This document shows, in pieces, positions 10,449-34,153 of a DNA stretch of 64,000 bases. Positions within the stretch are counted from its first letter, which is position 1, and each line of letters opens with the position of its first letter. The DNA is from Lysobacterales bacterium (GTDB lineage: Bacteria > Pseudomonadota > Gammaproteobacteria > Xanthomonadales > Rhodanobacteraceae): assembly GCA_015655335.1 (NCBI GenBank), contig JAATFF010000089.1, positions 31,240-95,239 of the forward strand. The letters are read 5' to 3'. A program made the translations under genes and the position numbers. The notes below the pieces were generated by a model. The model saw nothing but the letters and a program-made list of their open reading frames with translations, was not told the origin of the DNA and did no database searches.

Positions 10449-11615
10449 TCAGCTGCCCACAATGGCATGCACGGTATCGATGACACGATCTACGTCGCCG
10501 TCCGAAAGCGTCACGGATAGCGGCAGACTAACGGTTTCGCGCCCAAGCTTCATCGCGTGCGGCCATCGCTCCGGAGACCAACCAAATCGATGCTGGTAAT
10601 ACGGATGCTCTGGTATCGAAAGGTAGTGGACCCCCGTACCAATTCGCGCATCGTTCATCGCTTCCAGAAATTCATCGCGTTCGATGCCGCAGCGCTTGGC
10701 GTCGATCATCACGGTATACAGATGATGGCCATGATGGGTGTCGGCTTCTGCGGGCGCAGGTAACGTCATCGGCAACCCGGCGAACGCGTCGTTATACCGT
10801 TGCCAAATTTCCGCACGTCGTCGCCAGCTCACCTCGACGCGCGACAACTGATGCAGACCGATCGCCGCCTGTACGTCCATCATGTTGTATTTGAACCCGC
10901 ACTCCACAACCTGATAATGCTTGTAGCCTTTGTCACCAAAGCGATGCCAGGCGTCCTGGCTCATACCGTGTAGTGCAAGAATACGTGCACGCGCCATTTG
11001 CTCTTCGCTGCGCCCCACGATCATCCCGCCTTCGCCCGTTACGACGTTCTTGGTAACGTAAAAGCTAAAGCAACCAAAATCGCCAAAAGTGCCTAAGGCC
11101 TGCCCTCGATATTCGGCCTCGACGGCATGCGCACAATCTTCGATGACGACCAAGTTGTGTTTGCGCGCGATGTCCATGATCCGATCCATCTCGCAAGGTC
11201 GCCCCGCAAAGTGCACGGGCAGAATCGCGCGTGTCCGTGGCGTGATTGCCGCCTCGATGGCAGACGGGTCGATGTTCTGGCTAACGGGATCCACATCGGC
11301 AAGCACGGGCACGAGGCCCGCATGAAGAATTGCGTTGACGGTTGCGCAGAACGTCAGAGGCGTGGTGATCACCTCCGAACCGGGCTCCATATCTGCCGCC
11401 AGCATGCTTACGTGCAGCGCTGCCGTGCAGGAATTGACGGCGGCGACCTGCTGTGGGAGAACTCCGCGAAACATCGCGAAGTCGCGCTCGAACTGGGCCA
11501 CGCGCGGACCGGTGCCAAGCCATCCGGAACGAAGACAAGCGACGACCTCGGCGATCTCCGCCTCGTCGATCTGCGGTGCTCCGAAAACCAGGAATGGTGG
11601 CCGTGATGACTGCAT
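10449..11615 (-). CDS. DegT/DnrJ/EryC1/StrS-type sugar aminotransferase
   Basis: This 388-residue PLP-dependent aminotransferase converts a keto sugar nucleotide to an amino sugar, as perosamine or 4-amino-4-deoxy sugar synthases do. The PLP lysine is K189 in FYVTKNVVTGEGGM. The cofactor-contacting blocks VNSCTAALHVSML and VIEDCAHAVEAEYRGQ are present. The ATG at 11615 was chosen because the sequence from there matches the family; about 24 extra upstream codons do not. It is the first gene of the etfA-metB locus and lies just downstream of cysNC on the same strand. No 4,6-dehydratase specific for its substrate is adjacent, though Gmd and RmlB products made elsewhere in the window could serve. 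Confidence 0.9.
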   Translation of the reverse strand: MQSSRPPFLVFGAPQIDEAEIAEVVACLRSGWLGTGPRVAQFERDFAMFRGVLPQQVAAVNSCTAALHVSMLAADMEPGSEVITTPLTFCATVNAILHAGLVPVLADVDPVSQNIDPSAIEAAITPRTRAILPVHFAGRPCEMDRIMDIARKHNLVVIEDCAHAVEAEYRGQALGTFGDFGCFSFYVTKNVVTGEGGMIVGRSEEQMARARILALHGMSQDAWHRFGDKGYKHYQVVECGFKYNMMDVQAAIGLHQLSRVEVSWRRRAEIWQRYNDAFAGLPMTLPAPAEADTHHGHHLYTVMIDAKRCGIERDEFLEAMNDARIGTGVHYLSIPEHPYYQHRFGWSPERWPHAMKLGRETVSLPLSVTLSDGDVDRVIDTVHAIVGS

Positions 11616-11732
11616 GCTCGATTCCGTGTCAATACAAGAGAAGTGATCGCGAAACCCATCGGCGAACATCCAGACACGCAATGTCACCGCGACAATCTTG
11701 GCACGCAGTATGCCCGCTTCTGAAATACTGGA

Positions 11733-13589
11733 TCAGTGGCTTTCGGATGGAAGCAGGCGCTCCACCAGCTGCTCCACCATGTTCTCAAGCCCCCTATCGC
11801 CCGTATGCAAATGCACCTCCGGTGTTTCCGGTGCTTCGTAGGGAGAATCGATGCCTGTGAAATTACTGATTTCTCCAGCCCTTGCCTTGCGATACAGACC
11901 CTTCGGGTCGCGCCGCTCGCACTCTTCCAGCGACGTATCGACGAAAACCTCGAGGAATTCTCCGTCCGCAAACAGATTCCGAGCAAACTCACGCTCGCTT
12001 CGGAACGGGGAAATCACGCAAACCAGCACGATCAACCCGGCATCGACCATCAAATGCGCCACCTCGGCCACACGGCGCACATTTTCGACGCGCGCCTCGG
12101 CGGTAAAGCCCAGGTCGCGATTTAGCCCATGGCGCAGGTTGTCGCCGTCCATCAGATACGTGTGGTAGCCGAGCGAGCCAAGACGGCGTTCAAGCAGATT
12201 GGCAATCGTCGACTTGCCCGCACCCGAAAGGCCCGTGAACCATAAGCATCTCGGTTGTTGCCCTTTGCTTCGCGCGCGCGCCTGCTTGTCCACATCCACG
12301 TGCTGCCAGTGCACATTGGTGGCCCGATGCAGGGCGAAATCCAGCATGCCACAAGCCACCGTGGCGTAAGTTTGCCGATCAATCAGGATGAAGCCGCCTA
12401 GGGAATGATTCGCGGCGTAAGTCTCGAAGGCGACCGGATGGTCGAGATCGATATTGCAATAGCCAACCTCGTTCAAGTCGAGGCGATGCGCGGCTAGCCT
12501 GGCTTGTGTGTTCACGTCGACCTTGTGCTTGATTGACGTAATACGTGCATTGACGATTCGGGTTCCTATCTTGAGCCAGTAGCCCCGATTTGGCAGCAAC
12601 GCCTCATCGCCCATCCATAACACGTGCGCGGCAAACTGATCAGCCTCCGACGTCGGACGCGCGGCATCGGCGATAACATCACCGCGACTAATGTCGACCT
12701 CACGGTCGAGGGTCAATGTCACTGCTTGACCGGCGTGCGCCTCTGGCAGATCGCCATCGGCGGTCACGATACGCGTCACGCGTGCCCGACTGGTGCCTGG
12801 CTGGACAACGATTTCGTCGCCCGCTTTTACTCGGCCGCCACAGATCGTCCCTGCATAGCCGCGAAAACTTTGATCTGGGCGATTAACCCATTGCACCGGC
12901 ATGCGAAATTCACTGACCTGCTGTGATTGCACGCTGACCGTTTCCAACACTTCAAGCAGCGCGGGACCACCGTACCAGGACATACGTGCGGAACACGAAC
13001 CCACATTGTCGCCACTCAGTGCAGCGACTGGAAGCGCGTACACTGAGGTGATACCAAGCTGGTCGGCCAATACTCGGTACTCTGCCTCAATGGTCTCGTA
13101 GGTCTCTTGCTTGTAACCGACAAGATCCATCTTGTTTACGGCCAATACGACTTTGCGAATACCTAGCAGCGCGCAGATGTAACTGTGGCGACGAGTTTGC
13201 GGTAGCAGCCCTTTTCGTGCGTCGACCAGCACTACTGCCAGATCGGCATGCGACGCCCCGGTAGCCATATTGCGCGTGTATTGCTCATGTCCTGGGCAAT
13301 CGGCGACAACGAAGCTACGTCGTGCACTGCGAAAGTAACGGTAAGCCACATCGATGGTGATGCCCTGTTGGCGTTCGGCGTCGAGTCCGTCGGTCAATAG
13401 GGAAAAATCCAATACATCGCCGTTGGGATATTGGCGATGACTATCGCGTCGAAGCGCATCGAGCTGATCGTCGGGAAGCATCCCCGTGTCATAGAGCAGC
13501 CGGCCCAGCAACGTGCTTTTGCCGTCGTCTACACTTCCACAGGTAATAAAACGCAATAGATTACGAGCAGAGGATTCGCTGATGGCCAT
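11733..13589 (-). CDS. cysNC: Bifunctional sulfate adenylyltransferase subunit 1 / APS kinase (CysN-CysC, NodQ-like)
   Basis: This 618-residue fusion carries out two steps of sulfate activation: the GTPase partner of CysD that drives APS synthesis, then APS kinase making PAPS. The N-terminal GTPase has [22 protein letters not shown] and NKMDLVGY. The APS kinase begins near residue 450 with [14 protein letters not shown] and continues with [16 protein letters not shown]. Its ATG overlaps the cysD TAA by one base (TAATG), indicating coupling. The fused architecture is that of nodulation NodQ. No cysH, cysI or cysJ (PAPS and sulfite reduction) lies nearby, and a sulfotransferase is next upstream, so a role as PAPS source for sulfation is favoured over assimilation. 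Confidence 0.95.
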
Positions 13590-14497
13590 TAGAAATAGCC
13601 CTCTTGCTTCTTGCGTTCCATGGAAGCAGAGGGGTCGTGATCGATCACTCGACCCTGTCGCTCGGAACTGCGCGAATGAGTCATCTCAACAATGATGTCA
13701 TCCAGCGTACTTGCCGACGACTCGACGGCCCCCGTTAGCGGGTAGCAGCCCAGTGTGCGGAAACGCACCGTGCGCATTTCCACTGTCTCGCCAGGGCGCA
13801 AAATGAAACGCTCATCGTCAACCATGATCAGCGCGCCATCCCGCTCGATTACCGGACGCTCCTTGGCGAAGTAAAGCGGCACGACGGGGATGCTTTCACG
13901 CCGGATGTAATGCCATACATCCATCTCGGTCCAGTTCGACATGGGAAAAACTCGTACGCTTTCGCCTTTGTGAATATGGGTATTGTAGAGATTCCATAAT
14001 TCGGGGCGCTGGCGTTTGGGATCCCAATGATGTTGCGCGTTACGAAATGAGAACACACGCTCTTTCGCGCGAGATTTTTCTTCATCTCGACGGGCGCCAC
14101 CGATCGCGGCATCGAATTGGTACTTGTCCAAGGCCTGCTTGAGCGCGGCAGTCTTCATGACATCCGTGTGCACCGTGGCACCATGTACCAGCGGCGAGAT
14201 GCCCTGGCGCACGCCGTCCTCGTTGATGTGAATCAGCAACTGCACGTCACCGGCAGCGGCCACCTGATCGCGAAACGCTATCATCTCGCGGAACTTCCAA
14301 GTGGTATCAACGTGCAGCAGGGGAATCGGCGGCCGTGCGGGATAGAACGCCTTTCGCAGTAAATGCAGAAGAACGGATGAGTCCTTGCCGATCGAGTACA
14401 GCATGACTGATCGCTGGAAGCCGGCTGCGACCTCACGAAAGATGTGGATGCTCTCGGCTTCAAGCGTATCGAGCTGCGAAAACGGAGTGTTCATCAA
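13589..14497 (-). CDS. cysD: Sulfate adenylyltransferase subunit 2
   Basis: This 302-residue catalytic subunit of ATP sulfurylase makes APS from ATP and sulfate with CysN. The PP-loop motif [13 protein letters not shown] lies near the N-terminus. The family blocks [20 protein letters not shown] and [19 protein letters not shown] are complete. The ATG at 14497 was kept; an adjacent second ATG is equally possible. Its stop overlaps the cysNC start. A 9-bp inverted repeat lies immediately upstream and could control expression. Confidence 0.96.
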
Positions 14498-14507
14498 TTC
14501 ATTCGCT

Positions 14508-14805: not shown

Positions 14806-16095
14806 TCAGCGCGGTTGCTTTGTGCCGACGCCTTTACGGAGTAAAACACTCGCCATAGGTGCATGCTCGACTGTCTTCGCACGAAGAGGAACTGCAGGTG
14901 ATGATGCACGGCGATGGGCATATCGGCTAAATACCCGGGCGGCGAAGTTACCGAGTCCCGCTCTGCGAATGAAAGCGTAAATGCCTGCACCGGCCAGCGC
15001 CGATGCCAGCCAGAGATAGCCCCCGATACTCAAGGGACGTTGCCCGTACAAACTTTCCGCCAATATCGCCGTTCCTGCCAACAATACGTAGGCCGCCAAT
15101 ACCAAACCGCACCAATTCAACCCACTGGCAAGCTTGGCAACCTTCTCCTGCGCTGAGCGATATTCGTTATCCAATCCAATCATGAAGTCAATACGCTCGC
15201 TGAACCCTTCTTCAAATTCAGCTCGAGAGACGGGGCAAGGCACGTAGCCATCGAACGGTCGCTGCAGCTGCTCACTCAACTCAAGAGCTCGCTCTATTAC
15301 TACGGAGTCGGTTTTGGGATCGTGAGCACGAAAATCAACGGGAACTTCTGAGCTGTTGATCTTGCGAGCAACCGGCTCGGTGCACGACTCCGTGAACGGC
15401 TCGTCCAGAAATTCTAATAACCCCTGGAGTGCCCATTCGGGCCTATGCACAAGATCGTCGTAGCGCAACCGATGCACTACATCTGATCCAAGTGCACGCT
15501 CAGCCTGCACGCAAGCTTGCACGGTACCAAGCCAATACTCATACGCCTGTTGCTCCGTATCCACCAGACCGCAATGGCCGCTAGGCTTGAAATTCAGAAT
15601 TGAATTCACGACGGAACGAACATCGCGCACGATGTGCACGAACTTGGCGTCCGGAAAAAGCTTCTTTAGGCCGCAGATATAGAACGAATACTCAGGGGTC
15701 CCATCGACCCAGCGCAATTTTGGCTCAGAACTGGACCGGGAGATGTTGAAATTCGGATCATGCTGAGACGGAGATCGTTCGGCGGCCTGCCTGCAACTTT
15801 TCTCCAGTCGCTGACGATGGCGACGAATCATTGCATCGATGCCGTCGCCGAACGTCTGGAAAAACGTTTCCCGATCGACGCCGAGGGCATTCAGCTGCGA
15901 ACGCTCGCCGTGCATTTTGCCGACCCGGTAGCAGACGCCTACGTCTACCGCGAACTCGCCCATCCAGTCCGATTCTTCTTGGGGCAAGATGTTCGGATGC
16001 TGCCCTAGGCACCATGTGAGTATGCTCGTTCCTGATCGCGGTGAGCCGACCACAAAGATAGGGCCCCTTGCATGCCTTGTTTCAAATTCAGACAT
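14806..16095 (-). CDS. Membrane-anchored sulfotransferase
   Basis: This 429-residue PAPS-dependent sulfotransferase transfers sulfate to a carbohydrate or lipid acceptor. The 5'-phosphosulfate loop is IFVVGSPRSGTSILTW (residues 13-28) and the 3'-phosphate motif is IVRDVRSVVNSILNF. The last third holds two hydrophobic segments (around CGLVLAAYVLLAGTAIL and GGYLWLASALAGAGIYAF), then a basic tail, so the enzyme is probably fixed in the inner membrane with a cytoplasmic catalytic domain. A GTG 48 bp upstream is an alternative start, but the ATG at 16095 follows GGGGAG at 7 nt and was preferred. The adjacent cysD-cysNC can supply PAPS. Confidence 0.86.
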   Translation of the reverse strand: MSEFETRHARGPIFVVGSPRSGTSILTWCLGQHPNILPQEESDWMGEFAVDVGVCYRVGKMHGERSQLNALGVDRETFFQTFGDGIDAMIRRHRQRLEKSCRQAAERSPSQHDPNFNISRSSSEPKLRWVDGTPEYSFYICGLKKLFPDAKFVHIVRDVRSVVNSILNFKPSGHCGLVDTEQQAYEYWLGTVQACVQAERALGSDVVHRLRYDDLVHRPEWALQGLLEFLDEPFTESCTEPVARKINSSEVPVDFRAHDPKTDSVVIERALELSEQLQRPFDGYVPCPVSRAEFEEGFSERIDFMIGLDNEYRSAQEKVAKLASGLNWCGLVLAAYVLLAGTAILAESLYGQRPLSIGGYLWLASALAGAGIYAFIRRAGLGNFAARVFSRYAHRRASSPAVPLRAKTVEHAPMASVLLRKGVGTKQPR

Positions 16096-16592
16096 CCATT
16101 GGCTCCCCAGCCCGGAAATTTTGGCACGCACGTCTAGATTCACCGCGTAGCCAAAAAAAACTATGCTCTACGGCGCCCTCAGTCTCCCAAGGCCTACTCA
16201 GGCCAGGATCAGGTGCCCTAATTGTCAGGCAGGCGCAAGATTACCTTTTTTGGACGCCAATACATAGTCAGGTGTATCACGGCTCGAAATTGGCTGGGTA
16301 CGAAGCAGATATCCAAAAATCGCGCAGATATTACGACCCAGCTTCAAGGAACGGCCCTTTCAGCACCTTCCGACGAGAAATAGATGTCACTTAAGCTCGT
16401 ATTCCGCGAATACCGCTTGGTGGATTCCCATCGCCGATGCAGATCCATCTACCGTTAATACGTCGTACGGTGCCGTTGGAAGCTCATCGAACCGACGCTA
16501 TGCCGGCGTCGGCCATATTAAGGAAATCGACTGTCCGGCCAATAACGCTAGTGCGGATATACTTTCTACGTCTCGTACAAGGGTGTCCGGGT
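16096..16592. other. Intergenic stretch with no recognised gene
   Basis: About 500 bp between the sulfotransferase start and the decayed methyltransferase. It is richer in A+T than the flanks and carries stops in all frames. The sulfotransferase promoter must lie here, but no clear hexamer pair was found. No RNA gene or transposase fragment was recognised. Confidence 0.5.
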
Positions 16593-17490
16593 ATGAGCAA
16601 CGACGATGCTGCATTGCCTCACCGATCGGAACAGCCAGATCTCTGGCAGCTTTGATTTCACTCGCTTGAGGAATGCCGACAGGCTCTGGAAGCAAATGTT
16701 CCTCGATTCCGGGCCAGACGAGCCATTGAGCAAGAGCTTCAGGAACGACTAAATACGCGGGATCAAGCCATTCTCCCCGGGTACTGCTGGGTTTGTCGGG
16801 ACGTCCGTGCCTTTACGTATGACATGCGCTATTCAGATGGGAGGCGTGTCAACTGGCGTGAACGGATCGTATGTCCCTCCTGCCGTCTCAATAACCGTCT
16901 TCGACTATCCGTCCAGATCTTGGAGCGATTGGTGGAAGACACCAGACCGAGTATCTACCTGACCGAGCAGGTCACGCCGTTGGCGAGTTACATCGCCACT
17001 CGCTTTCCATCGGCGACCATGAGCGAGTATTTAGGCACGGAATTTTCGGCGGGTGAGGTAGATGCACGAGGTATCCGTCACGAAAATGTGACATCTCTGA
17101 GTTTTGAAGATGAAACATTCGATTTCATCTTGAGTTTCGACGTCTTGGAGCACGTTCCCAACTATCGCGCAGCGCTCGCTGAACTTTTCCGAGTGCTAAA
17201 ACCAAGTGGTCGAATTCTTATCAGCGTCCCGTTTGGGCTTCTAACCGATCGAAACATTGTTAGGGCCCGAGTGAATGCTGACGGTCGCATAGAGTACCTT
17301 CTACCCCCCCGAATACCACGGCAATCCCGTCGATCCAGCGGGTGGCATCCTTTGCTATTACCATTTTGGCTGGGAATTCTTGGAAGAATTGCACCCCGTT
17401 GGCTTTACTGACGCGTACGTGCTACTGGCCTGGTCACTTGAGTTTGGGCACATAGGCGCCGAGCAAGTCCTCATTATTGGACAAAAGTAG
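16593..17490 (+). pseudogene. Decayed class I methyltransferase (in-frame stop plus frameshift)
   Basis: A SAM methyltransferase of the kind that starts with a zinc-ribbon-like cysteine region. GYCWVCRDVRAFTYDMRY and RIVCPSCRLNNRLR are encoded around 16779-16890, followed by SFDVLEHVPNYRAAL and LFRVLKPSGRILISVP. Two lesions are visible. An in-frame TGA at 16653-16655 separates a possible N-terminus (ATG 16593) from the cysteine region, and no ATG, GTG or TTG lies between that stop and the ATG at 16824. A 7-C run at 17304-17310 shifts the frame; removing one C restores PPEYHGNPVDPAGG and FGWEFLEELHPVGF up to the TAG at 17488. The ATG at 16824 would give a shortened 195-residue product. A sequencing error at the C run is possible, but the second lesion favours decay. 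Confidence 0.75.
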
Positions 17491-17860: not shown

Positions 17861-18853
17861 CTATTGCTGTTCAATCTTGATAGTCATTCGCCCGATCTGG
17901 CCATACACATTTTGCGAAGGGTTTGCGACGGTGCCGGCACCAAACCAAAGGTAGTAGGTGCCGTCATTGCGCCCCGTCTCCATCAACGTGGGGTCCCCCA
18001 TGATCGCGGAAGCCCACGATGGCCGCTGCGTATCGGGGATCAGCAAGCCATGCTTGTCCCAAGTTAGACCATCAGTAGATGTTGCCCAGCCGAGCGAATG
18101 ACGATGATCCGTCGTCGATCCCATGTAGAACATGTAGAAATATGGAGAGATGTACACGACTGATGGTTCGCCAGCACCACCTGCGTCGAACGCTTCCTCC
18201 GCACCACGGAACGTCAAGGGGTCTTTGTCCTTGACCCAGTTGAGTCCATCGGAAGAAACTGCGCGCCCCATGTGAAATTTGTAATCGTGGCTGACAGTAA
18301 GGTAATACATCCAAAAATTTGACCCGACCTGCATGACGAACGGATCTGCTACCGCGAAGTCATCCCACGCGCCTCGCACACCGGCGGGTACGACTGGATT
18401 CGGGAGTAATTTGAAGTTCTTGCCGTCATTGCTAGTCGCCACGCCGATTTGCTGCTTTCCATCGGCAGCTTTGCCGTGAAAATAATAATTAACTTTGCCG
18501 TTAATAACGATCGCGGAGCCATTCGCTGCGATGTATTGAGTATCCCAACCACCAAGATCAACAACTGGCCAGGGCAAGCGATCCCACGTCAGGCCTTCAT
18601 CGTTCGATGTTGCGTAACCGGTACGCCAAATCGAACCGTCATAGCCGGAGTAGTAATCGATCAATTTTCCCTGGAATTGGATGACGGACGGATTGAGATC
18701 GTCCACACCGTCCCATGCCCCCTTTGCGCCAGCGCTCATGACAGGGTTCCGCGCAATATCGACGACCGTTACCTTCGGTTGTCCAGCATCTCGCGTGCAA
18801 CTCGCGCAAATGAGGGAGCAAAATAACGTGATCGCGATAACACAGCTGCGCAC
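17861..18853 (-). CDS. Lipoprotein with five-bladed propeller glycosidase-like fold (GH43/GH32-type)
   Basis: A 330-residue exported protein. The N-terminus has a hydrophobic signal ending in LFCSLICASC, a plausible lipobox, so it is probably lipid-anchored in the cell envelope. The rest repeats short blocks such as IGVATSNDGKNF, GRAVSSDGLNWV and GWATSTDGLTWD, alternating with MYYLTVSHD and FYMFYMGST. This is the blade pattern of GH43/GH32/GH130-type glycosidases. Catalytic residues cannot be assigned with confidence. A role in trimming or degrading a polysaccharide is inferred from fold and location inside the O-antigen locus. Confidence 0.7.
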   Translation of the reverse strand: MRSCVIAITLFCSLICASCTRDAGQPKVTVVDIARNPVMSAGAKGAWDGVDDLNPSVIQFQGKLIDYYSGYDGSIWRTGYATSNDEGLTWDRLPWPVVDLGGWDTQYIAANGSAIVINGKVNYYFHGKAADGKQQIGVATSNDGKNFKLLPNPVVPAGVRGAWDDFAVADPFVMQVGSNFWMYYLTVSHDYKFHMGRAVSSDGLNWVKDKDPLTFRGAEEAFDAGGAGEPSVVYISPYFYMFYMGSTTDHRHSLGWATSTDGLTWDKHGLLIPDTQRPSWASAIMGDPTLMETGRNDGTYYLWFGAGTVANPSQNVYGQIGRMTIKIEQQ

Positions 18854-23502: not shown

Positions 23503-24135
23503 ATGCAAGATGATCGTGGACTAAAACGGATCTTCACCCTCTCGTGGGCCTACAACCTTTTTCAGGATCTGGTTGGCGCGACGAATTCTAGAAAATGGGT
23601 TGCCGAGCATTTTTGGCGCGCACAACCGGGGCAGCGAATCATCGATCTAGGGTGTGGCCCCGCCACGACCGTACATTTTCTGCCTGCGGGAGTGAAGTAC
23701 GTCGGTTTCGACGTAAGTGATAAATATATAGCCAGCGCGCGGACAAAGTACGCTACTGATCCGGACAAGACGTTTCTCGTGGGAGTGCCCGAGGATTTCG
23801 TCAACCATCTACCGCAGCAAATGCAGAATGCCGATCTTGTCATCATCAACGGCCTGCTACATCACCTGGATGATGCCGAAGCCTTGACCGCATTAAAGCT
23901 TGCGCGTAAATCGCTAGCCCCGGGTGGCCGCTTGGTTTGCCTAGAAGCAAGCTTTCTCGTCAGCCAATCGTTTTGGGCTCGATGGGTACTCAAACAAGAT
24001 CGTGGACAAAACGTTCGTAACGAGCCCGAGTGGAAGGCCTTGGTTTCAAAAGTCTTCGACAAGTTTGAAACTTATATCCTGACCGGTCTACTGCGCATTC
24101 CGTACACGTTGATCGTTATCGAAACGAGACTCTAA
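23503..24135 (+). CDS. Class I SAM-dependent methyltransferase
   Basis: A 210-residue methyltransferase. Motif I is IIDLGCGPATTVHF (residues about 46-59), the acidic end of strand 2 is in YVGFDVSDKY, and the later motif reads LVIINGLLHHLDDAEAL, then ARKSLAPGGRLVCLE. It is a soluble enzyme whose substrate is not evident; a sugar or lipid intermediate of the locus is likely. It lies about 260 bp after the membrane-protein gene and converges with the next methyltransferase. The upstream gap contains a short hairpin (CGCTTC/GAAGCG, 23249-23267) but no convincing terminator. Confidence 0.85.
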   Translation: MQDDRGLKRIFTLSWAYNLFQDLVGATNSRKWVAEHFWRAQPGQRIIDLGCGPATTVHFLPAGVKYVGFDVSDKYIASARTKYATDPDKTFLVGVPEDFVNHLPQQMQNADLVIINGLLHHLDDAEALTALKLARKSLAPGGRLVCLEASFLVSQSFWARWVLKQDRGQNVRNEPEWKALVSKVFDKFETYILTGLLRIPYTLIVIETRL

Positions 24136-24218: not shown

Positions 24219-24959
24219 TTAAGCGGCGGTAGCTTGAACGACATATTGCGCACCAAAGGGTATCCAGCCCATGGCTGGCTCGAGAGGCCGCAGATAAGCG
24301 AGCATTCGAGGGAAAAAAACGATGTAGCGGCTGCGCACACTTTCAAAATTGCCGCGTCGAGCAAGGCCCAGTAGCTCGGACCTTGGCAAAAGAATCGCAT
24401 CTTCGTCGAACGGACAATCCCTCACTGTCTTGAGAGTCAACGGGTTCAAAACGTTGTGCTCAAAGATGAACACCTGCCCTCGTGGTTTCAATACGCGCCG
24501 AATTTCCGCTATCCAATAGTTGCGTTCGTCAGGCGGAATGTGATGAAAGACACACGCAGCCATCACTACGTCGAAGCTCTGATCGGCGTACGGAATGCGC
24601 GAATTCTCGATAGTGCGAAACGTCGCTTCATGCGCATGCGACTCAATGGCGAGCCGGATACTTTCACCGGAGAGATCTGCGCCATATAGATCGGCCGAAG
24701 CAAATGCCGTGCGCAAATGCGTAGTGGTATTTCCTACGCCGCAACCGAAGTCGAGAATCGACAAAGACTTTGTTTTGGCATCTAGCCCTATTTGAGCTGC
24801 GATATAGTTAGCTTTATAGGCCGCAAAAAACGCGGGATCTTCCCCGCTGATCTCTATGCTGGCCTGATGCAAGTCAGTATATTCCTTCGCGTACTGATCG
24901 AATTCTGGCTTGTCTGATTTCTTCATACCGATCTCGCAGATGTTTCGAGCAATATTCAA
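24219..24959 (-). CDS. Class I SAM-dependent methyltransferase
   Basis: A methyltransferase of up to 246 residues. SILDFGCGVGNTTTHL is motif I, LYGADLSGESI the acidic strand 2, and VVMAACVFHHIPPDERNYWI followed by IRRVLKPRGQVFIFEHN the catalytic core. The longest frame begins at a TTG at 24959 whose bases overlap the gtrA TGA (TTGA). The ATG at 24926 (MKKSDKPEFDQYA) matches the family start equally well, and neither has a strong ribosome binding site. It is last in a minus-strand operon after the GT2 and GtrA genes. The substrate is unknown. Confidence 0.85.
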   Translation of the reverse strand: MNIARNICEIGMKKSDKPEFDQYAKEYTDLHQASIEISGEDPAFFAAYKANYIAAQIGLDAKTKSLSILDFGCGVGNTTTHLRTAFASADLYGADLSGESIRLAIESHAHEATFRTIENSRIPYADQSFDVVMAACVFHHIPPDERNYWIAEIRRVLKPRGQVFIFEHNVLNPLTLKTVRDCPFDEDAILLPRSELLGLARRGNFESVRSRYIVFFPRMLAYLRPLEPAMGWIPFGAQYVVQATAA

Positions 24960-25381
24960 TTAGCGCGCATGATTAGTCGAGATGCCAGAAATGTCGCCGG
25001 TATCGTTAGAACTGCCACAAGCAATGGTGCTAACCGTGTTGACACATGCAGCCCTTCGATCAATATTTTCAGCAACACCAAGCCGAGTAGGAACTGCATT
25101 AGATAAACAAAAGGGTAGCGCAGCGCGGAGCGCAGCCGCATCGGCTGCCTAAATACATATACCGCATTGAAGACATACGACACAGCAATTCCGACCACAT
25201 AAGCGATAGCGTATGCAACTTCATAGCTCATCCAGTGTAGTAACACCAGATAAGTGCCGTAGCCTACAACGGCATTCAACAGTCCACCGACCAAAAAGCG
25301 AAGGACTTCAGCCGCCCATCCCGGTGCAACTGGCATTTGGCGAGCTTGGGTACGAGTCATCCTGAAAAACAAGCGGCGCAT
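24956..25381 (-). CDS. GtrA-family membrane protein (putative lipid-linked sugar flippase)
   Basis: A 141-residue protein with four membrane helices, starting with LRFLVGGLLNAVVGYGTYLV and containing VSYVFNAVYVF, both typical of the GtrA family. GtrA proteins are thought to flip an undecaprenyl-phosphate sugar across the inner membrane for later transfer to O-antigen. It lies one base after the GT2 gene, which is its usual partner, and its stop overlaps the following methyltransferase start. A dedicated third-component transferase is not adjacent; the polytopic proteins at 19.4-23.2 kb are candidates. Confidence 0.88.
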   Translation of the reverse strand: MRRLFFRMTRTQARQMPVAPGWAAEVLRFLVGGLLNAVVGYGTYLVLLHWMSYEVAYAIAYVVGIAVSYVFNAVYVFRQPMRLRSALRYPFVYLMQFLLGLVLLKILIEGLHVSTRLAPLLVAVLTIPATFLASRLIMRAN

Positions 25382-25382: not shown

Positions 25383-26399
25383 TTAGTGTGCAGCCTTAGT
25401 TAGATCATCAGAGATGGCGGGACTAATTGGCCCGGGTACTCGGTCAACTGTTTGGCTATCGACGACATACATGGGCCGCCGAAACGTCGCCCCCATCAAA
25501 CGTCCGATATATTCACCGACTACTCCAAGTATCAGCAACTGTATGCCGCACGCAAACAACACAGCGGACATGAGGGATGCATAACCCGGATTGGTAATGC
25601 TACCCCTCAACCTTCCATAGATGACAAAAAGAAGGTAGAGAAAACTTATTGCAGCCAGCGTCGCACCGCCGAACGTCGCAACACGCAATGGCAGCGTTGA
25701 GAAAGTAACAAAGATGTTTGCGGCATGCGAGATAAGTCTTCGTAATGTATAGGCACTCTCGCCATGGTGCCGCTGCTCATGTGGAACCTCGACGCTACGC
25801 GTCGACGAAGTCAGCCACGACAACATGCCATCGATATAAGGGCGATTCAAACCGAAACGATCGAGCTGCTTTGCTAGCGGTGCATAGATGGCACGAAATG
25901 AACAATAGTCCTCATTGAGGTCGGGAAAGGCGCGTTTAAGTACACGACGCATCAATTCCGAACTCAGGTTTCGATAAGCTGCGTGCGTCCGTTTCTTGAA
26001 CACTCCATACACCAGCGGATGATCTTCGTCGCCAGCTGCTAGCAAGGCCGGAACTGATTCAGGAGGATGCTCGAGATCGTCGTCCATAGTGACGATCCAT
26101 TTTCCGCGCGCATATGCCATACCGCAAATGGTTGCGGCGTGCTGACCAAAATTCCTGCCCAGGCGCAGCCCCAGCACATGAGCATCTTCTGCCGCGACTG
26201 TGCATATCTTTCCCCAGGACTCTGCGCGCCCTCGATCGTCGACAAGAATAACCTCATAGTCGAGCCCGGTCGGTTGCATCGCGACGGCTAGTCGCGCGCA
26301 GAGTTCGGAAAGTGCTGAGCTGCCGCCATACACGGGAACTACGATCGACACATCAACACATGAATTGGCATCAGAGGGGGTCATGTCCAGATCGTTCAT
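25383..26399 (-). CDS. GtrB/DPM1-like polyprenyl-phosphate glycosyltransferase
   Basis: A 338-residue GT2 enzyme. The catalytic domain (residues 15-230) has VSIVVPVYGG, VILVDDRG, LGRNFGQHAATICGM and MDDDLEHPPE. Two hydrophobic helices follow (around 235-310, with VVGEYIGRLMGATFRRP), the architecture of GtrB/ArnC/DPM1-type transferases. These load a sugar from a nucleotide onto undecaprenyl phosphate at the inner membrane. It is immediately followed by GtrA, supporting a flip-and-transfer tailoring route. The sugar is unknown. Confidence 0.88.
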   Translation of the reverse strand: MNDLDMTPSDANSCVDVSIVVPVYGGSSALSELCARLAVAMQPTGLDYEVILVDDRGRAESWGKICTVAAEDAHVLGLRLGRNFGQHAATICGMAYARGKWIVTMDDDLEHPPESVPALLAAGDEDHPLVYGVFKKRTHAAYRNLSSELMRRVLKRAFPDLNEDYCSFRAIYAPLAKQLDRFGLNRPYIDGMLSWLTSSTRSVEVPHEQRHHGESAYTLRRLISHAANIFVTFSTLPLRVATFGGATLAAISFLYLLFVIYGRLRGSITNPGYASLMSAVLFACGIQLLILGVVGEYIGRLMGATFRRPMYVVDSQTVDRVPGPISPAISDDLTKAAH

Positions 26400-26413
26400 G
26401 AAGGTTTATTTGA

Positions 26414-27148
26414 TTAGCTACACGCTATTTGGGACGAATGAAGGCCTAAGCCCGCATTATCATCAACACCATAGTACTTGTTGATAACGCTTTCGATATA
26501 GCCGTCACCGAGGTCAATACCAAGCCCGCTGCTTATCTCCCAGACCATCCGAGTATCGATAGCCAAGGGACCGCCCTTATCGACAATTGAGTAATCTGCT
26601 CGCTTCTTCAATGCGCGCTCGAAGATCTTCACGATATCCGGCATTAGCAACGACTTCATGGCAGCGATGGAAACGACCTTCCCGTGACTCACTGTATCGG
26701 TAGCTAACGCGGCTCCGATGCGGACAATGTCATCGATGTCGACAAGGTTGCGCTCCGCACGCGCCCATACCGTAAAGTGTTCTCCGGAAATGATTCGATC
26801 CCTTAGAAAGTTGGTCAGCGTGTGCGAATTGTCGGTTCTTCCCACTACCTGCGGAAGACGAAAAACCAGGCCGTTGGCAGAGGAAAGCACCAATGCCTCC
26901 ATGGACTGCTTGTGCTTCATATATGCGGTGAGTTCGGCATCTTGCGCGGTCACGCCACAACTGCCGAAATAGATGAAGCGCTTCGCATCGCTGTCCAGCA
27001 GCTTGCACAGAAGCGAACGCTCGCGCTCAAATTCAACAGGGCGCGTTTCAAGAGAATTAGACACTCCAGACGCGAAGACCACGACGCTGGAATCCGTGCC
27101 AAAGTGCGGCTCAAATGCCCGCGCCAATAGTCCTTTACCAATGATCAC
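26414..27148 (-). CDS. NAD(P)-dependent epimerase/dehydratase-like protein
   Basis: A 244-residue Rossmann protein, shorter than typical sugar-nucleotide epimerases (about 300). The N-terminus VIIGKGLLARAF gives a degenerate GxGxxA nucleotide site. FIYFGSCGVT sits where the active-site Ser/Thr lies, and AYMKHKQSME provides a YxxxK pair. The start is GTG at 27148 with AGGGG upstream. It probably modifies a nucleotide sugar for the locus, but the specificity and even catalytic competence are open. It is followed by the GT2-GtrA-methyltransferase genes on the same strand. Confidence 0.7.
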   Translation of the reverse strand: MIIGKGLLARAFEPHFGTDSSVVVFASGVSNSLETRPVEFERERSLLCKLLDSDAKRFIYFGSCGVTAQDAELTAYMKHKQSMEALVLSSANGLVFRLPQVVGRTDNSHTLTNFLRDRIISGEHFTVWARAERNLVDIDDIVRIGAALATDTVSHGKVVSIAAMKSLLMPDIVKIFERALKKRADYSIVDKGGPLAIDTRMVWEISSGLGIDLGDGYIESVINKYYGVDDNAGLGLHSSQIACS

Positions 27149-27269: not shown

Positions 27270-30200
27270 TCATTGCAGACCTGCCGTCTGATCGATTACA
27301 GACGCTTCCAACCGCAAAGCGCGCTTCAATGCTGTAGCCATCGCAGCCTTGGTGAATGAGCGTCTGATAAAACTTTTTCCGCCCTCTGAAACTTTAATCC
27401 AATAGTTATCATCTCGAAGTATGTCGACCATGCTGGCGGCAATCTGCTCGGGTTGATCAAAAACAGGAATATATTTTTCAAGATCCAGCAACCCTTGCGC
27501 ACCCGCCGAAGTAGTCACCAATGGCGTGCCTCGCTGCATCGCTTCAAGCACTTTGAGCTTGACTCCCGCACCAAAACGAAGTGGAGCCACAACCACCCTG
27601 GCATTGCGGTACATGGTTGCCAGGTTCGCGTCACTGACATAGCCATGAACTTCAACGCCCGGACCTGATAGCGCCTTTACGACATCGGTAGGATTTGACC
27701 CAACTAAATGTACGGTCACGTCTGGGTACGACTTACGAACAAGCGGCATGACATCCGTCATCAACCAGCATGCAGCGTCGACATTCGGCGGGTGGGCAAA
27801 TCCTGCCACAAACAAGATGTCAGCTCGCTCTGCGAGATTATCTGCAGCATCTTCTTCTACGCTATCAAAGCAATACAGAGGTACGGCTACCGCATCGACA
27901 TCGGGCGCCAGGCGTCTGACCTCTGCAGCTTCTTCTTCTGATGGATAGAATACCGTATTACTTTGACTCCACAGATAGCGCTCAATTTTCTCGATCGCAT
28001 CAGCTTCCTTGAGACAAGACGCATCACCCGTCACAGCCGCCTGCCTGCGAAGCCGCATGAAATGAAGGTCCACTCCAAAGTAGCTGATGTAAGCACTTGT
28101 ACGCCGCCGCAGCAGATCAATGTAATTGATCGCAATATGCGGGCGGCTCAAAAGAACGCATTCGATGTCTTTGCCACGCTCGGCAATAAACTCCTCAAAC
28201 GCTCCATTCCATCGATTGCCATAGATCACCTCGACACCCATTGCCTGTAAAGGCGCCGAGTACGAAGGATCCCGCCGCAAATTATCAGGCCAGAAAATAA
28301 CTTTCTTGCCCATATTGATCAGCTGCTGCATGAACTGAACCATCACGCGAGATCCGGCATCACGGTCCGGCTGCGGCACATAATGATCGATGACAAGAAC
28401 AGTCCCGGTATAGAGTCGACGTTCCCTGGCACGAGAGACGGACTTGGCGTTCGGCAAATGATGTTTCGACAACGTCTCCGCCCAGCGCTCGTGGAAACGC
28501 TGGCGATTTGAAACCTGATGCGCCTTTACACCAGCCGTCTCATCCGTGCCGTGCGATATACCCTCATAATGGACCACCACTGAGAACGGCGTATAAAAAA
28601 CCCGCTTCCCGGCCTCCCGAACCTTGAATGCCAAATCTGTATCTTCGTAATAAGCGGGGATGTATCGCTCATCAAATCGATCAAGTTTTTCGAACAACGC
28701 CAGCGGAATCAGCAGGGACGCTCCCGAGCAATAGTCGACCTCACGCACGTAGTTATATTCAGGATCCTCCGGATTCTGGAGCCGACCGTAATTCCAGCCG
28801 CATGCGTCATCCCAAATGATGCCACCGGCTTCTTGCAAGCGCCCGTCGGGATAAACCAATTTGGATCCGACCAATCCGCAATCCGGGAAGCGCTTGAAGA
28901 TGTCCAGCATGGCATCCAGCCATCCCATCGTCACCTCCGTGTCGTTGTTCAAAAGATAGAGGTACTTCCCCTTGATGAGCGTCGATGCCCTATTGCAGGA
29001 ACGTAAGAATCCGAGATTCTCCGGATTCTGCTCGTAACGCAAACCTGGTACTGATGCAAGCAAATGCATGGATGCGTCACCCGATGCATCCTCGATCACC
29101 AGAACCTCAAAAGGAACCAATGGTTGATGGCTCATAATGGAATGCAAGCAATTAACCGTATACCCCAGCTGGCCATACGCGGGTATGACGATACTTACCA
29201 GCGGCTCCATGAAGGTTGGGAATGACAAGTCCATCAGCCTGATTTTCGGATCAACAGCGCTTATTTTTTTGAGCATTGGCGATGCGTCCGGGGTGTCGCG
29301 ACGCCCTGCCATGCGTTGCTTCACGCTCTGCCTAACGGAAGCAAAGTCGCCTCTAAGCATTCGTGCCACAAGCCGCAATGGCCTGGTGACGCGCCACGAG
29401 TGAGACCGGACAATTGTTTGCAATTGATCGCGCGTCGAATTCAATTCGAGTTCCATCTCCCCCATGTTCTGGGTAAGCCTTCTGTTGAGTAATTCCTTGT
29501 CATGAAACTGTGCAAGCAAGTCGTTCATCGCGCCTTCGAATTCAGCGATTTTCGCCTTGTTCCTTGCAGGTCCGCGCAATGGATTCAGCTCCGTACATTC
29601 GCCTTGGAGTACCTCTCCCAATTGATGGCGGACGTAGTCGATCTCACCCGTAACATCCTTGATATAGGCACGAAGCCGCTTTAGCTCCTCACCACCCTCT
29701 GTCGTCAGACGCACCCGCCTTTCGTTCTCTTCCTTCAGGGCCGCATAGCGCCGAAGGAGATCCATATGCTCATCATTGGTCTTCGTCGCCCACTGCGCAA
29801 CCCTTTCGTGCTCCTCCACCAGGCTCACATAGCGCGCACTGATACTCGTAAGCTCCTCGTCGGTTTTCTGGGCCCAACTCGCGACTTCGCGATGGTGCGT
29901 GTAAAGATCCTCTATCTCCGAAAAGAACACTGATGAATGAAGGATTGGTATGTGCACATCAGCCGCAGCAGCAATAGCGACAAAATAAACCGGATCCGTC
30001 AGATCCGGAGTTCGTTGCTCCACACCCTTCATCGTATCCGTAAAGGCTTCCAAGAAACTTTCTGGGTCAACGGATTCAATCGCCGTCAGTGCAGAGCCAA
30101 CCGCCAACCTCTGGCCAAAATAACGTCGCTGCTCAAAGCGCGAGCGCAACAGAGCCTCGAACTCACCGAAATCAAGCTCCTTCACGTGAAACTCGTTGTG

Positions 30201-30635
30201 ATACCCCGCCTTTTCGGAATAAACAACGCGATTAGGTGAAGAAATAACCAGAACACCGTCGGGTTTAAGCACACGGCGTATTTCATCGATCATTTCCTGA
30301 TGCTTGTCGTGATGCTCAATCGTTTCGAATGAGACAACAACGTCGAACGAATTGTCCGGAAGCGGTATGGATGCCGCGTTTCCCACTTGAAATTCGAGGC
30401 CCGGGACGCTGGCGTATGCCTCCTTTGCATGGAGAACCGCTTCAGCAGAAACATCCACGCCGATCACCGAAGCCGCATCACGTGCCAACATCGCGCTGCC
30501 ATAGCCTTCGCCACACGCTATATCCAATACCGCTCGGCCTTTGACAAGGCCGCGACACCACGCGTAACGATGAAAATGCTCGTGCCGAATAACGCCATCA
30601 AGCGACGGAAGGAAACGCTCACCGGTAAATTCCAT
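27270..30635 (-). CDS. Methyltransferase-coiled-coil-GT2-GT4 fusion protein
   Basis: A 1121-residue multidomain protein. Residues 1-180 are a SAM methyltransferase ([40 protein letters not shown]). Residues about 235-430 are charged and heptad-like ([31 protein letters not shown]), consistent with a long coiled coil. Residues about 475-740 are a GT2 domain ([32 protein letters not shown]). Residues about 765-1110 are a GT4-like domain ([31 protein letters not shown]). It starts four bases after the wzt stop, so it belongs to the wzm-wzt operon. By analogy with WbdD-type terminators it may methylate chain ends and set length through the coiled coil, while adding sugars itself. Confidence 0.88.
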
Positions 30636-30639
30636 GCTC

Positions 30640-32049
30640 TTAGGCCCCCGACTGAAGGATTTCTATCGAGTGCATGGGAATTCCCACCAAACCGTGCCGC
30701 ATAGTGCTCTCGCTTGCCTTGAAAATAAGTGCGTCGTGGATCCAATGCTGATGCGTGTGGTCGTCCTGCGACCCACTAGCCAATGCAACGTCAATTGAAT
30801 AATCGCCCGATGGCAGTATGGGCATTCTGAACTGAAATCTTGCCTGTAATCGAGCTCCAGCATTGGCGCTGACGGGTTGCTCGCGATACGTCAAATAGGA
30901 ATTGTCTCCAAACAGGCGTTGACCAAGCCTGTCTTTCACGTAAAACCCGAAAATCGGCGCATTCAACGACCGGAGAACGGAAGCCTCGATCTCCAGGCTT
31001 ACCGCCTCTCCGCCGAGCACCATGTTGCAAGATTTACCATCCTCGCCAAGGATTCGCACATCCGTGATGCTGGCAGCCCCGGCGCCGAATTCACTGCCAT
31101 GCTTCTCAGGGTCGAAGTCGAAAACTTCAATCTTGTTGTTCTGCAAGAGCTTGACACGCGTATCAACCACGTCTCGGGGAATTTCCCCACTACTGCGTCC
31201 CACCCCCTCGACCACGAGTGATTCGTTCGCCGAGGCACTGGCATCGGTCAACTTGATCGCTACCGTGTCACCCAACACGGTGCGATCGGCAACATGCTGT
31301 GCCGCAAGATAATGTTCAACAACACCTCGCGTGGCCCCATCAAGCATGAGACGCCCACCGTCCAGCCAAATAGCGCGATCGCACAAATTGGTAACAGCAA
31401 CTGTATCGTGGCTGACAAACAAGAGAGTACCTCTGCGCTGAAATTCACGCATAAAGCGCATACATTTCTGAGTAAAGCGCACGTCGCCAACGCTGAGCGC
31501 CTCATCAATAACCAACGTATCCGCATCGACATGCGCAGCGATGGCAAAGGCCAACCGCACATACATGCCGCTCGAATACGTCTTTACAGGCTGTTTGATA
31601 AAGTCGCCGATGTCGGCAAATGCCAGGATCGAATCGAAACGTTTGCGCAGCTCATTTTCTGGGATGCCATACAGCAGCCCACTAAGGTATACATTCTCTT
31701 CACCGGTAAATTCCGGATTGAATCCCGCTCCAAGCTCAAGCAACGCGGCAATACGCCCACTTGTCTTGAGACTTCCTTCACTGGGATGCAGCGTGCCGCA
31801 AATCAACTGTAGCAATGTTGACTTGCCCGAACCGTTTCGCCCGATGATACCCACAGTCTCGCCACGCTTCACGTTGAAGCTTACGTTGCGCAGCGCCCAA
31901 AATTCTTCGTGATACGAGAGATCGTGCTTGCCAACGACATGCCCTAGCTTTGGCAGCAACATTTGCTTCAGGCGATCGGCAGGCTTGGCATAGATGTTGT
32001 ATTTCTTGCCCAACGAATCGACGGCAATGGTCAGATCTTCAGAGGACAT
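30640..32049 (-). CDS. wzt: Polysaccharide ABC transporter ATP-binding protein with C-terminal glycan-binding domain
   Basis: A 469-residue ATPase of the O-antigen/capsule exporter. The Walker A motif is GRNGSGKST (residues 70-78), the signature is [14 protein letters not shown] and Walker B is [10 protein letters not shown]. After the ATPase (to about residue 250) comes an extension whose last part, FRFQ...[14 protein letters not shown] and HWIHDALIF, is the Wzt C-terminal beta-sandwich that recognises the modified end of the exported glycan. The ATG at 32049 was chosen over an in-frame codon 36 bp upstream because [17 protein letters not shown] fits the family. It overlaps wzm by 11 bp. Confidence 0.95.
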
Positions 32050-32863
32050 CGGCAAAACCCTTGCGTGTACGCTCGAACCAACCAAAGGCTAGCCACGCGA
32101 AAAAAAAAGCCACGAGAGTGTACAGTCCCAATCCCATCCAGTTTGGCTCACGCCCCCAAACCAGCACATCCCGCGAAGCATCCACGATCATCGTCAGAGG
32201 ATTCAGATAGAGAAGATTTCTGTATGGAGGCGGTATTAATTCTTGCGGATAGAAGATAGGCGCAAGGAACATGAGCATGGCAGTAACAATGCCCATGGCT
32301 TGTTTCAGGTCGCGCAAAAAAACTCCGAGCGAGCTAAGCAACCAGATCAATCCAGCCATGAAAGGTACAAAGGCGGCAACCACCAGAGGGAAATATACGA
32401 CTGTCCATGGAATCGATCCACGAACGCCGAGCGAGAAAATGAGCAGCACAATCGTCGAAATAAACAAATGAAACAGCGCCGAACCTAGCGTGCTCCATGA
32501 CAGCGTCTCAAGTGGAAAAACCACTTTCTTCACGAAATTGGTGTTCTCTACAATCAACGTGGGCGCGCGATTGGCGCATTCAGAAAACATGCTGTTTATA
32601 TTGAGCCCGGCAAAAAGTACGACCGCGAAGTCGAAATGCCCCGAAACTTGTGTACTCCATCGAGACTTGAAAATCAGCCCGAACACAAATGTGTATACCC
32701 CAAGCATCAGAAGGGGATTAAAAAAGGACCATAACAAACCAATGAATGATCCGCGATAACGCCCTACGACATCGCGGCGAGCCATTTGCACAATCAAATT
32801 GAAATGGCGCACAAGTGCCTGGTACGGGGAAAATGGATCGCGCAGGCTATAGGTTGAAATCAT
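32039..32863 (-). CDS. wzm: Polysaccharide ABC transporter permease
   Basis: A 274-residue ABC-2 type permease with about six membrane helices. The N-terminus YQALVRHFNLIVQMARRDVV and GRYRGSFIGLLWSFFNPLLM are typical of Wzm/KpsM-like O-antigen exporters. It moves the completed lipid-linked glycan across the inner membrane with Wzt. It is the first gene of a minus-strand operon continuing with wzt and the fusion glycosyltransferase. The 111-bp gap to metB upstream must carry the promoter or read-through. No wzx or wzy was found, so the main chain uses the ABC route. Confidence 0.95.
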   Translation of the reverse strand: MISTYSLRDPFSPYQALVRHFNLIVQMARRDVVGRYRGSFIGLLWSFFNPLLMLGVYTFVFGLIFKSRWSTQVSGHFDFAVVLFAGLNINSMFSECANRAPTLIVENTNFVKKVVFPLETLSWSTLGSALFHLFISTIVLLIFSLGVRGSIPWTVVYFPLVVAAFVPFMAGLIWLLSSLGVFLRDLKQAMGIVTAMLMFLAPIFYPQELIPPPYRNLLYLNPLTMIVDASRDVLVWGREPNWMGLGLYTLVAFFFAWLAFGWFERTRKGFADVL

Positions 32864-32974
32864 GCTTTCTTTGATGCGTCAGTGAAAAAAGGAATAGTCA
32901 TGCGCATGTTGTCTCCGAATGCACAAGCATTCCATGGTCGCGGGGATACCCGCCGATGATTTTATGCGTTCATC

Positions 32975-34153
32975 CTAGGCAAGTGCCGAAGCAAGTTCGT
33001 TCCTTAAATCATCGATATCCTCCACACCTACTGACAAACGAATAAGGCCATCACTGATACCTAGCCTCTTGCGATTAGCCGGAGGCACCGACGCATGGGT
33101 CATGATGGCCGGATGCTCGATAAGGCTCTCCACCCCGCCCAATGATTCGGCCAACGCAAACAACTCGCATCGCTCCAATACCTGCCGAGCCTTCTTCAAG
33201 CCACCCTTCACTTCCACGCTGATGATGCCGCCAAAACCATCCATCTGGCGCTTTGCGAGCGCGTGCTGGGGATGGCTCTTGAGTCCCGGGTAGATGACTC
33301 GCTCTACGGCAGAATGCTTTTCCAGCCACTTGGCCAAATCCAGCGCCGAGTCGCAATGCGCCTTCATCCTCAGATGAAGGGTCTTGAGGCCCCGCATGGC
33401 CAGGAAAGCATCAAATGGTCCGGCGACAGCGCCCACGGAGTTCTGCAGGAAACCCATGCGCTCAGCCAATTCGTCGGATCCGGCCACCACCATGCCGCCA
33501 ACCATGTCGGAGTGACCATTGAGATACTTGGTGGCCGAATGCAGGACTAGGTCGGCACCAAATTCAAGCGGGCGCTGAAGCATGGGCGAACAAAACGTAT
33601 TGTCGACCACCAAGATCAGGCCATGCTTCTTGGCGAAGGCGGCGACCCTGTTAAGGTCGACTAGCTTCAGCATGGGGTTGGTAGGCGTCTCCGCCCAGAT
33701 CATCCGGGTGTTTGGCTTCAAGGTAGCCTTGAGTGCGTGACTGTCGTTGAGATCCACGAAGCTAAAGTCCAACCCGGCGGAACGACGACGGACCCGCTCA
33801 AAAAGGCGGTAACTGCCACCATACAGATCATCCATCGCAATGACATGGCTGCCCGAGTCCAGCAAATCCAAAACGGTGGCTGCAGCGGCCAAGCCCGAGG
33901 CAAAGGCAAAGCCAGCCGCGCCGCCCTCTAGGGCTACGACACAACGCTCATACGCCATCCGCGTGGGATTCTGGGTGCGAGAGTATTCAAACCCCTTATG
34001 CTTGCCAGGGCTTTCCTGCACATAAGTGGAGGTCGCGTAGATCGGCGTCATGATGGCGCCAGTCGATGGGTCCGGAGACTGGCCCGCATGGATTGCCAGT
34101 GTCCCGCGCCCCAACGTTGTCTGCTTCTTGGCATTCCGCGTCACTTTGCTCAT
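32975..34153 (-). CDS. metB: Trans-sulfuration PLP enzyme (cystathionine gamma-synthase/lyase type)
   Basis: A 392-residue PLP enzyme of cysteine/methionine interconversion, acting on cystathionine or O-succinylhomoserine. The cofactor lysine lies in LHSATKYLNGHSDMVGG. YSRTQNPTR, ALEGGAAGFAFASGLAA and SLGGVESLIEHPAIMTHA are the diagnostic blocks. Sequence alone does not separate gamma-synthase from gamma-lyase; the symbol follows the gene that flanks the LPS locus in Xanthomonas. It marks the second boundary of the etfA-metB locus here. Polysaccharide genes continue beyond it. Confidence 0.9.
   Translation of the reverse strand: MSKVTRNAKKQTTLGRGTLAIHAGQSPDPSTGAIMTPIYATSTYVQESPGKHKGFEYSRTQNPTRMAYERCVVALEGGAAGFAFASGLAAAATVLDLLDSGSHVIAMDDLYGGSYRLFERVRRRSAGLDFSFVDLNDSHALKATLKPNTRMIWAETPTNPMLKLVDLNRVAAFAKKHGLILVVDNTFCSPMLQRPLEFGADLVLHSATKYLNGHSDMVGGMVVAGSDELAERMGFLQNSVGAVAGPFDAFLAMRGLKTLHLRMKAHCDSALDLAKWLEKHSAVERVIYPGLKSHPQHALAKRQMDGFGGIISVEVKGGLKKARQVLERCELFALAESLGGVESLIEHPAIMTHASVPPANRKRLGISDGLIRLSVGVEDIDDLRNELASALA

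Follow-up and report, generated by a model that had tools for sequence, protein, structure and literature searches.

The stretch of DNA considered here, hereafter the window, comprises 64,000 nucleotides of contig JAATFF010000089.1 from the Lysobacterales bacterium assembly GCA_015655335.1; it lies on contig 7 of an assembly of 169 contigs, with 3.5 Mb and 86% completeness. Between etfBA and metB it carries genes typical of a lipopolysaccharide (LPS) locus, together with genes for sulfate activation, i.e., cysD and a cysN-cysC fusion (collectively cysDNC), and a sulfotransferase gene. This work addresses the use to which the product of cysDNC, 3'-phosphoadenosine 5'-phosphosulfate (PAPS), may be put at this locus. 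Families were called with Pfam and NCBIfam profiles on the larger open reading frames (ORFs) of the window. The features on which the argument turns are the following:

8657..9403, plus strand: etfB, flank (Pfam ETF).
9430..10374, plus strand: etfA, flank (Pfam ETF and ETF_alpha).
10449..11687, minus strand: DegT-type sugar aminotransferase, ArnB/PseC-like, below the cut-off of both models.
11733..13589, minus strand: CysN-CysC fusion, i.e., sulfate adenylyltransferase large subunit and adenosine 5'-phosphosulfate (APS) kinase (NCBIfam, 964 bits, cut-off 715).
13589..14497, minus strand: CysD, sulfate adenylyltransferase small subunit (519 bits, cut-off 413).
14806..16143, minus strand: Sulfotransfer_3 protein, here ST3 (Pfam E-value 2.6e-29; likely start 16095).
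27270..30635, minus strand: protein with a methyltransferase, a GT2 and a GT4 part (MT-GT2-GT4), the domain order being WsaE-like (Pfam).
30640..32085, minus strand: Wzt with a Wzt_C carbohydrate-binding domain (Pfam).
32039..32863, minus strand: Wzm, ABC-2 permease (Pfam).
32975..34153, minus strand: metB-type gene (Cys/Met-metabolism pyridoxal-phosphate enzyme), flank; the best NCBIfam model is slightly below its cut-off.
34541..35326, plus strand: Sulfotransfer_2-like protein, here ST2 (sub-threshold Pfam match, predicted fold).

The reading frames of cysD and cysN-cysC are intact; the GTPase motifs of CysN and the APS-kinase motifs are intact in the CysN-CysC protein of the window, and CysD likewise contains the motifs sought in it. 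CysD and the CysN part each align with the solved structure 1zun across almost their full length. Two contigs from a viral collection (L163 and L164) encode CysD proteins 64-67% identical to that of the window and may represent either virus or host DNA. The gene set and order reported in the initial annotation, i.e., cysDNC, a sulfotransferase, an aminotransferase and Wzm/Wzt between etfBA and metB, were confirmed by the profile searches. The same annotation recognised the flanks as those of the Xanthomonas LPS locus, and the Pfam and NCBIfam calls agree with the description in the available text of PMC2238763.

The cysD of the window is the sole cysD of the assembly, and the only other match to PAPS_reduct is CysH, encoded on contig 25 in a run that comprises CysJ, CysI, CysH, a fusion of an ATP sulfurylase (PF01747) with an APS kinase (Sat-CysC), an ORF without Pfam match, and CysG. 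A sulfatase-family (PF00884) protein (L008:1424-3340) adjoins this operon. Given that the Sat-CysC fusion stands within the cysJ-cysI-cysH operon, sulfate is activated for assimilation by a separate, unrelated enzyme; the cysDNC of the window is unlinked to cysHIJ and is not the only sulfate-activating enzyme of the genome. The initial annotation had set against its own proposal the case of a fully assimilatory cysDNC, present as the only copy, with cysHIJ elsewhere. This description is literally true of cysD, but it fails in substance because Sat-CysC accompanies cysHIJ.

The conservation of these genes was followed in a set of 16 genomes of the genus, taken to be Dyella, that of the window counted, and in a wider set of 100 genomes, again with its own included. 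All 16 genus genomes have cysD, and full-length Sat-CysC, CysH and CysI are each present in the same 14, with Sat-CysC adjoining CysH in every one of the 14. None of the three was detected in G003 (one contig, 99% complete) and G009 (approx. 250 contigs, 91% complete), and both keep cysDNC near etfA with CysN-CysC intact; for G009, an assembly gap is a possible explanation of the missing genes. In the wider set cysD was matched in 69 of the 100 genomes, strongly in 66; the weak-only G029, G048 and G078 were left out of the counts, and PF01507 was searched in all 66 genomes with a strong match. Twelve of these 66 (G003, G009, G016, G026, G039, G041, G045, G056, G072, G081, G093 and G097) have no PF01507 match besides cysD and no NIR_SIR match. 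Four others (G035, G040, G068 and G099) have a second, weak PF01507 match and were hence not counted as lacking CysH; NIR_SIR has no match in G040, G068 and G099, and one in G035. Since the twelve genomes span eight genus labels, repeated loss of assimilation with retention of cysD is likely, and as they have neither CysH nor CysI, their PAPS is likely used for sulfation. The suggestion that on-site PAPS synthesis is dispensable for cysteine is therefore supported both by the separate operon and by the two genus members that keep cysDNC without CysH and CysI; for the genus, gene content makes it well supported that cysteine synthesis would not depend on this PAPS supply.

In the stretches fetched from the genus genomes, etfA and cysD lie within approx. 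15 kb of each other in 14 of 16; the exceptions are G011 and G013, for each of which the one stretch of 20 kb does not show this arrangement. In G010 and G015 cysDNC is located just outside the etfA-metB interval. Six of the 16 have a relative of ST3 next to, or in the vicinity of, the cys block or of etfA. It stands immediately upstream of cysD in the window genome, G005, G006 and G014; in G001 it separates the aminotransferase from CysN-CysC, and in G015 (41% identity) it adjoins etfA. The comparison of etfA-metB intervals proposed in the initial annotation, made here for the genus, found an ST3 relative in 6/16, and the view of the locus as "rewired" did not hold, because cysD is in 16/16 genus genomes and near etfA in 14/16 while the sulfotransferases vary. 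The idea that cysDNC was brought in with an O-antigen cassette was rejected for the same reason, that cysDNC is genus-core at the etf flank. Judged from gene content, cysDNC is a genus-core block at this flank and the sulfotransferases are exchangeable cargo.

This cargo takes several forms. ST2 is found past metB in five of six ST3-bearing loci and in none of six others covered on both sides (p 0.015, kinship uncorrected); one of the six ST3-less loci is that of G054, from another genus, and the table leaves out G003, G004, G011 and G013, in which metB is not in the stretch, and G008, with too little past metB. A single open frame in the G010 locus (L148:2679-4412) encodes a Sulfotransfer_2 match (E-value 8.5e-7) followed by Wzt_C (E-value 5.4e-17), and in the G012 locus a below-cut-off Sulfotransfer_3 part is fused to glycosyltransferases. 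Two very long proteins, L149:8032-13179 (G012) and L144:14317-18843 (G007), have a sulfotransferase-like N-terminal motif with WbsX and more glycosyltransferase domains; among these the sulfotransferase Pfam match is seen in G012 only, below the cut-off. Of 41 neighbourhoods, that of the window among them, 10 have by motif or profile a sulfotransferase-type ORF adjoining cysD, and six of these ORFs score weakly (L065, L066 and L073-L076, 26-38 bits, counted as sulfotransferases); one antisense 180-residue motif match in L072 was dropped from the count. The association of cysD with Sulfotransfer_3 over the 100 genomes was uninformative, as the family is present in 93 of them.

With respect to ST2, Pfam gives only a sub-threshold match to Sulfotransfer_2 (E-value 0.0096). 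Relatives numbered 431, of which the best 120 were listed and 37 of these aligned with the query, revealing invariant positions in H9-G17 and R83/S91. The model built from the same sequences has a mean predicted local distance difference test score (pLDDT) of 89.8; three PDB matches pass an E-value of 0.001, all of them heparan sulfate 2-O-sulfotransferase (best 5.6e-5), and the fourth is a 6-O-sulfotransferase (3.2e-3). The possibility that ST2 is a misreading was rejected on account of this predicted fold, and the second sulfotransferase beyond metB, already noticed in the initial annotation, is sustained by the alignment and the fold, not by the Pfam cut-off. With respect to ST3, the start previously placed at 16095 is probable, since a 95% identical relative (P0007) starts at that methionine. 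Its model was built from the query and 22 of the 120 listed relatives; hydrophobic C-terminal stretches, read by eye, and the modelled helices indicate that these helices probably anchor the protein in the inner membrane.

The locus also contains genes that the initial annotation did not mention, i.e., that for the MT-GT2-GT4 protein (27270-30635), more methyltransferases, GtrA, GDP-mannose 4,6-dehydratase (GMD), the rml genes and manC. The remaining features are:

16824..17411, plus strand: methyltransferase (Pfam).
17861..18853, minus strand: GH130/GH32/GH43-like protein (Pfam, NCBIfam).
19459..21648, plus strand: large hydrophobic protein with no Pfam family (a GT-C type is a guess).
21690..23240, plus strand: second large hydrophobic protein with no Pfam family.
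23503..24135, plus strand: methyltransferase (Pfam).
24219..24959, minus strand: methyltransferase (Pfam).
24956..25381, minus strand: GtrA-family membrane protein (Pfam).
25383..26399, minus strand: GT2 glycosyltransferase (Pfam).
26414..27148, minus strand: epimerase-family protein, partial (Pfam).
35603..36529, minus strand: NAD-dependent epimerase/reductase adjoining GMD (Pfam).
36507..37754, minus strand: GMD (Pfam).
38166..41597, plus strand: rmlB, rmlA, rmlC and rmlD, for dTDP-rhamnose (named by families and order).
41601..43013, plus strand: manC (Pfam).

The G+C content is 0.55-0.59 across the cys block versus 0.48-0.53 across 18-34 kb. The epimerase-family protein matches profile positions 95-240 only, so that the nucleotide-binding half is missing, and it has a 67% identical relative in G005. 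Elsewhere in the window, a GT2-GT4 protein is encoded at 6427-8517, flanked by the ETF-QO gene and etfB, and genus members have relatives of it in the corresponding position; a protein with a pro-kumamolisin activation domain and no further Pfam match is encoded at 44382-46532; and ARAGORN called a tRNA with a four-base anticodon at 6043-6137, inside or beside the ETF-QO gene, which is probably spurious.

The neighbours of the ST3 family bear on the nature of the acceptor. Among 53 loci in named genomes, many of them on short contigs so that absence means little, a two-domain GT2-GT4 protein is encoded no more than 3 kb from the ST3-family gene in 17, always on the same strand; of the 49 loci without Dyella in the title, 5 have CysC or CysDN on the stretch. 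Contigs titled Verrucomicrobia (L088-L109) carry ST3 relatives, sometimes two or three in tandem, directly downstream of a GT2-GT4 protein. A glycan acceptor is favoured because of these GT2-GT4 neighbours and the WsaE-like layout adjoining wzt, and a sulfated surface glycan is a likely product of this gene set. With moderate confidence, we favour the view that the block at 10449-16143 makes PAPS to sulfate a surface glycan built and exported by the neighbouring genes, while cysteine would come from the separate operon. In the scheme that we propose, for which we infer what the enzymes do, that the glycan is the acceptor, that its sugar is rhamnose and that ST3 is membrane-anchored, CysD and CysN would produce APS and CysC would convert it to PAPS; ST3, at the inner membrane, and ST2 would add sulfate to the glycan while it is lipid-linked and still faces the cytoplasm. 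Elongation of a rhamnose-type chain and its capping with methyl would fall to the MT-GT2-GT4 protein, and Wzt/Wzm would carry the sulfated chain out.

Several observations weigh against glycan sulfation from a dedicated PAPS supply. The gap between ST3 and cysD is of 308 bases, and a scan of the locus for promoters and terminators gave no signal above chance, and with it no support for a common transcript. In ten of the 16 genus genomes, all of which have cysDNC, the fetched stretches contain no ST3 relative; G003 keeps cysDNC without CysH and has no ST3 relative, nor any other sulfotransferase that was seen, nearby, its two Sulfotransfer_3 matches being located elsewhere; and G054 has a similar Wzt (66%) and MT-GT2-GT4 protein (67%) and neither sulfotransferase. 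The ST3 model is of middling quality (pLDDT 75.2) and is nearest to tyrosylprotein sulfotransferases (best E-value 3.1e-8). Moreover, other contigs of the genome carry another three Sulfotransfer_3 genes, whose products would be able to draw on the PAPS. The resemblance of ST3, these further genes and the case of G003 would also fit a PAPS module for sulfation in which the acceptor is a peptide, as for RaxST, a lipid, or several targets of sulfotransferases encoded throughout the genome. A precedent exists in Xanthomonas oryzae, where, according to the available text of PMC4216712, an ATP sulfurylase and an APS kinase (RaxP and RaxQ) feed PAPS to the sulfotransferase RaxST for an exported product; there a peptide tyrosine is sulfated and the neighbours are secretion genes, whereas those of the window are glycan genes. 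No peptide-export genes were found among the Pfam-scanned ORFs of the locus, small ORFs lying outside the scan and no search having been aimed at raxX or RaxAB. The two-domain glycosyltransferases beside ST3 relatives in 17/53 loci and the likeness of the predicted ST2 fold to heparan sulfate sulfotransferases also speak against it, and we regard an acceptor other than the surface glycan as rather unlikely.

The remaining points against the dedicated supply concern the partition between the two sulfate-activating enzymes. Outside the genus, nine genomes (G044, G047, G061, G065, G067, G068, G075, G082 and G083) retain Sat-CysC and match PF01507 weakly or not at all, and NIR_SIR is unmatched in all four of them that were tested (G044, G047, G061 and G068). 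These counter-examples led us to reject the notion that Sat-CysC always accompanies CysH; across the order as a whole, either enzyme may persist once assimilation is lost, and the division of labour is consequently a claim for the genus. In addition, the family members G032 and G036 have CysH and CysI and no Sat part, so that cysDNC, the only ATP sulfurylase found in them, probably serves both sulfation and assimilation there. These two genomes, the single cysD copy of the assembly and the presence of cysDNC in the genus regardless of ST3 would agree with cysDNC being a spare or alternative assimilatory enzyme that neighbours O-antigen genes and a sulfotransferase by chance. This seems very improbable to us in view of the pairing of Sat-CysC with CysH in 14/14 CysH-bearing genus genomes, the retention of cysDNC in the 12/66 genomes that have neither CysH nor CysI, and the sulfotransferase-type ORFs beside cysD in 10/41 neighbourhoods, six of the ten weakly scoring.

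A bolder extension of glycan sulfation would be that two unrelated ATP sulfurylases divide the labour in Dyella, Sat-CysC serving cysteine and CysDNC, at the O-antigen locus, sulfation, and that the sulfate is a mark at or near the chain end, read by Wzt_C, which would control the length and export of the O-antigen. The reading of a chain-end sulfate by Wzt_C is suggested by the fusion of Sulfotransfer_2 with Wzt_C in G010; the proposal as a whole is speculative and, in our estimation, improbable.

The best-known sulfated surface polysaccharides are those of marine bacteria and rhizobia. If the surface glycan is indeed sulfated, a PAPS supply shared by a whole genus at this classic LPS locus of xanthomonads would add Dyella and its kin to the bearers of such polymers; in the open-licence literature, no work on a sulfated O-antigen in Dyella was found, and Dyella appeared with sulfotransferase only in the context of strigolactone. 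The retention of cysD in 12 relatives without detected sulfate reduction turns a guess based on neighbourhood into a testable rule, i.e., that the enzyme pair can serve sulfation alone, and it offers a clean genetic system, in which loss of cysDNC should leave cysteine synthesis intact. It also calls for caution in annotation, where cysDNC-type genes are usually assigned to cysteine synthesis.

In rhizobia, NodP and NodQ are CysD and CysN-CysC-type copies, encoded among symbiotic genes, that serve the sulfation of an exported lipo-chitooligosaccharide. The window resembles this system in having cysDNC-type genes that would serve to sulfate an exported sugar molecule, and differs from it in that the predicted acceptor is a surface glycan. 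The xanthomonad etfA-metB LPS locus is hypervariable between strains (available text of PMC2238763 and PMC524487), and likewise the gene content differs between the relatives of the window. Other similarities with the locus described in PMC2238763, as far as its available text goes, are the etfA and metB flanks, wzm and then wzt as the opening genes when the locus is read from metB, and rml genes nearby; the cys block and the sulfotransferases are additions, "sulf" and "sulph" occurring 0 times in that text. For two strains it reports two convergent transcription units; in the window the metB-side genes converge with part of the plus-strand genes, and the cys block is on the minus strand, towards etfA. 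The rhamnan system of Geobacillus (PMC2943079, available text) also has a methyltransferase and two glycosyltransferase domains in one protein, WsaE, adjoining wzm-wzt, as well as rml genes. This likeness is one of domain order, not of compared sequences; the Geobacillus glycan is located on an S-layer protein and sulfation is not described in that text. In Vibrio vulnificus, rugose colonies were reported, in the available part of the source, to need cysD and cysC and not cysH. The capsules of Vibrio sp. KMM 8419 (PMC11641403) and Cobetia marina KMM 1449 (PMC11766843) are reported as sulfated in the available text of these papers, and their clusters, like the window, unite CysD, CysN/CysC, sulfotransferases, rhamnose genes and an ABC (ATP-binding cassette) exporter in one polysaccharide region. 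According to the same texts these are marine Gammaproteobacteria with a Kps-type group 3 exporter, whereas in the window the exporter genes, at a locus of LPS type, are wzm and wzt, the latter with Wzt_C, and no Kps family is found among the scanned ORFs. The cysDNC genes of Vibrio sp. KMM 8419 are described there as second copies, and the window likewise has PAPS genes beyond the need of assimilation; the Vibrio and Cobetia clusters for sulfated capsules are the closest known systems.

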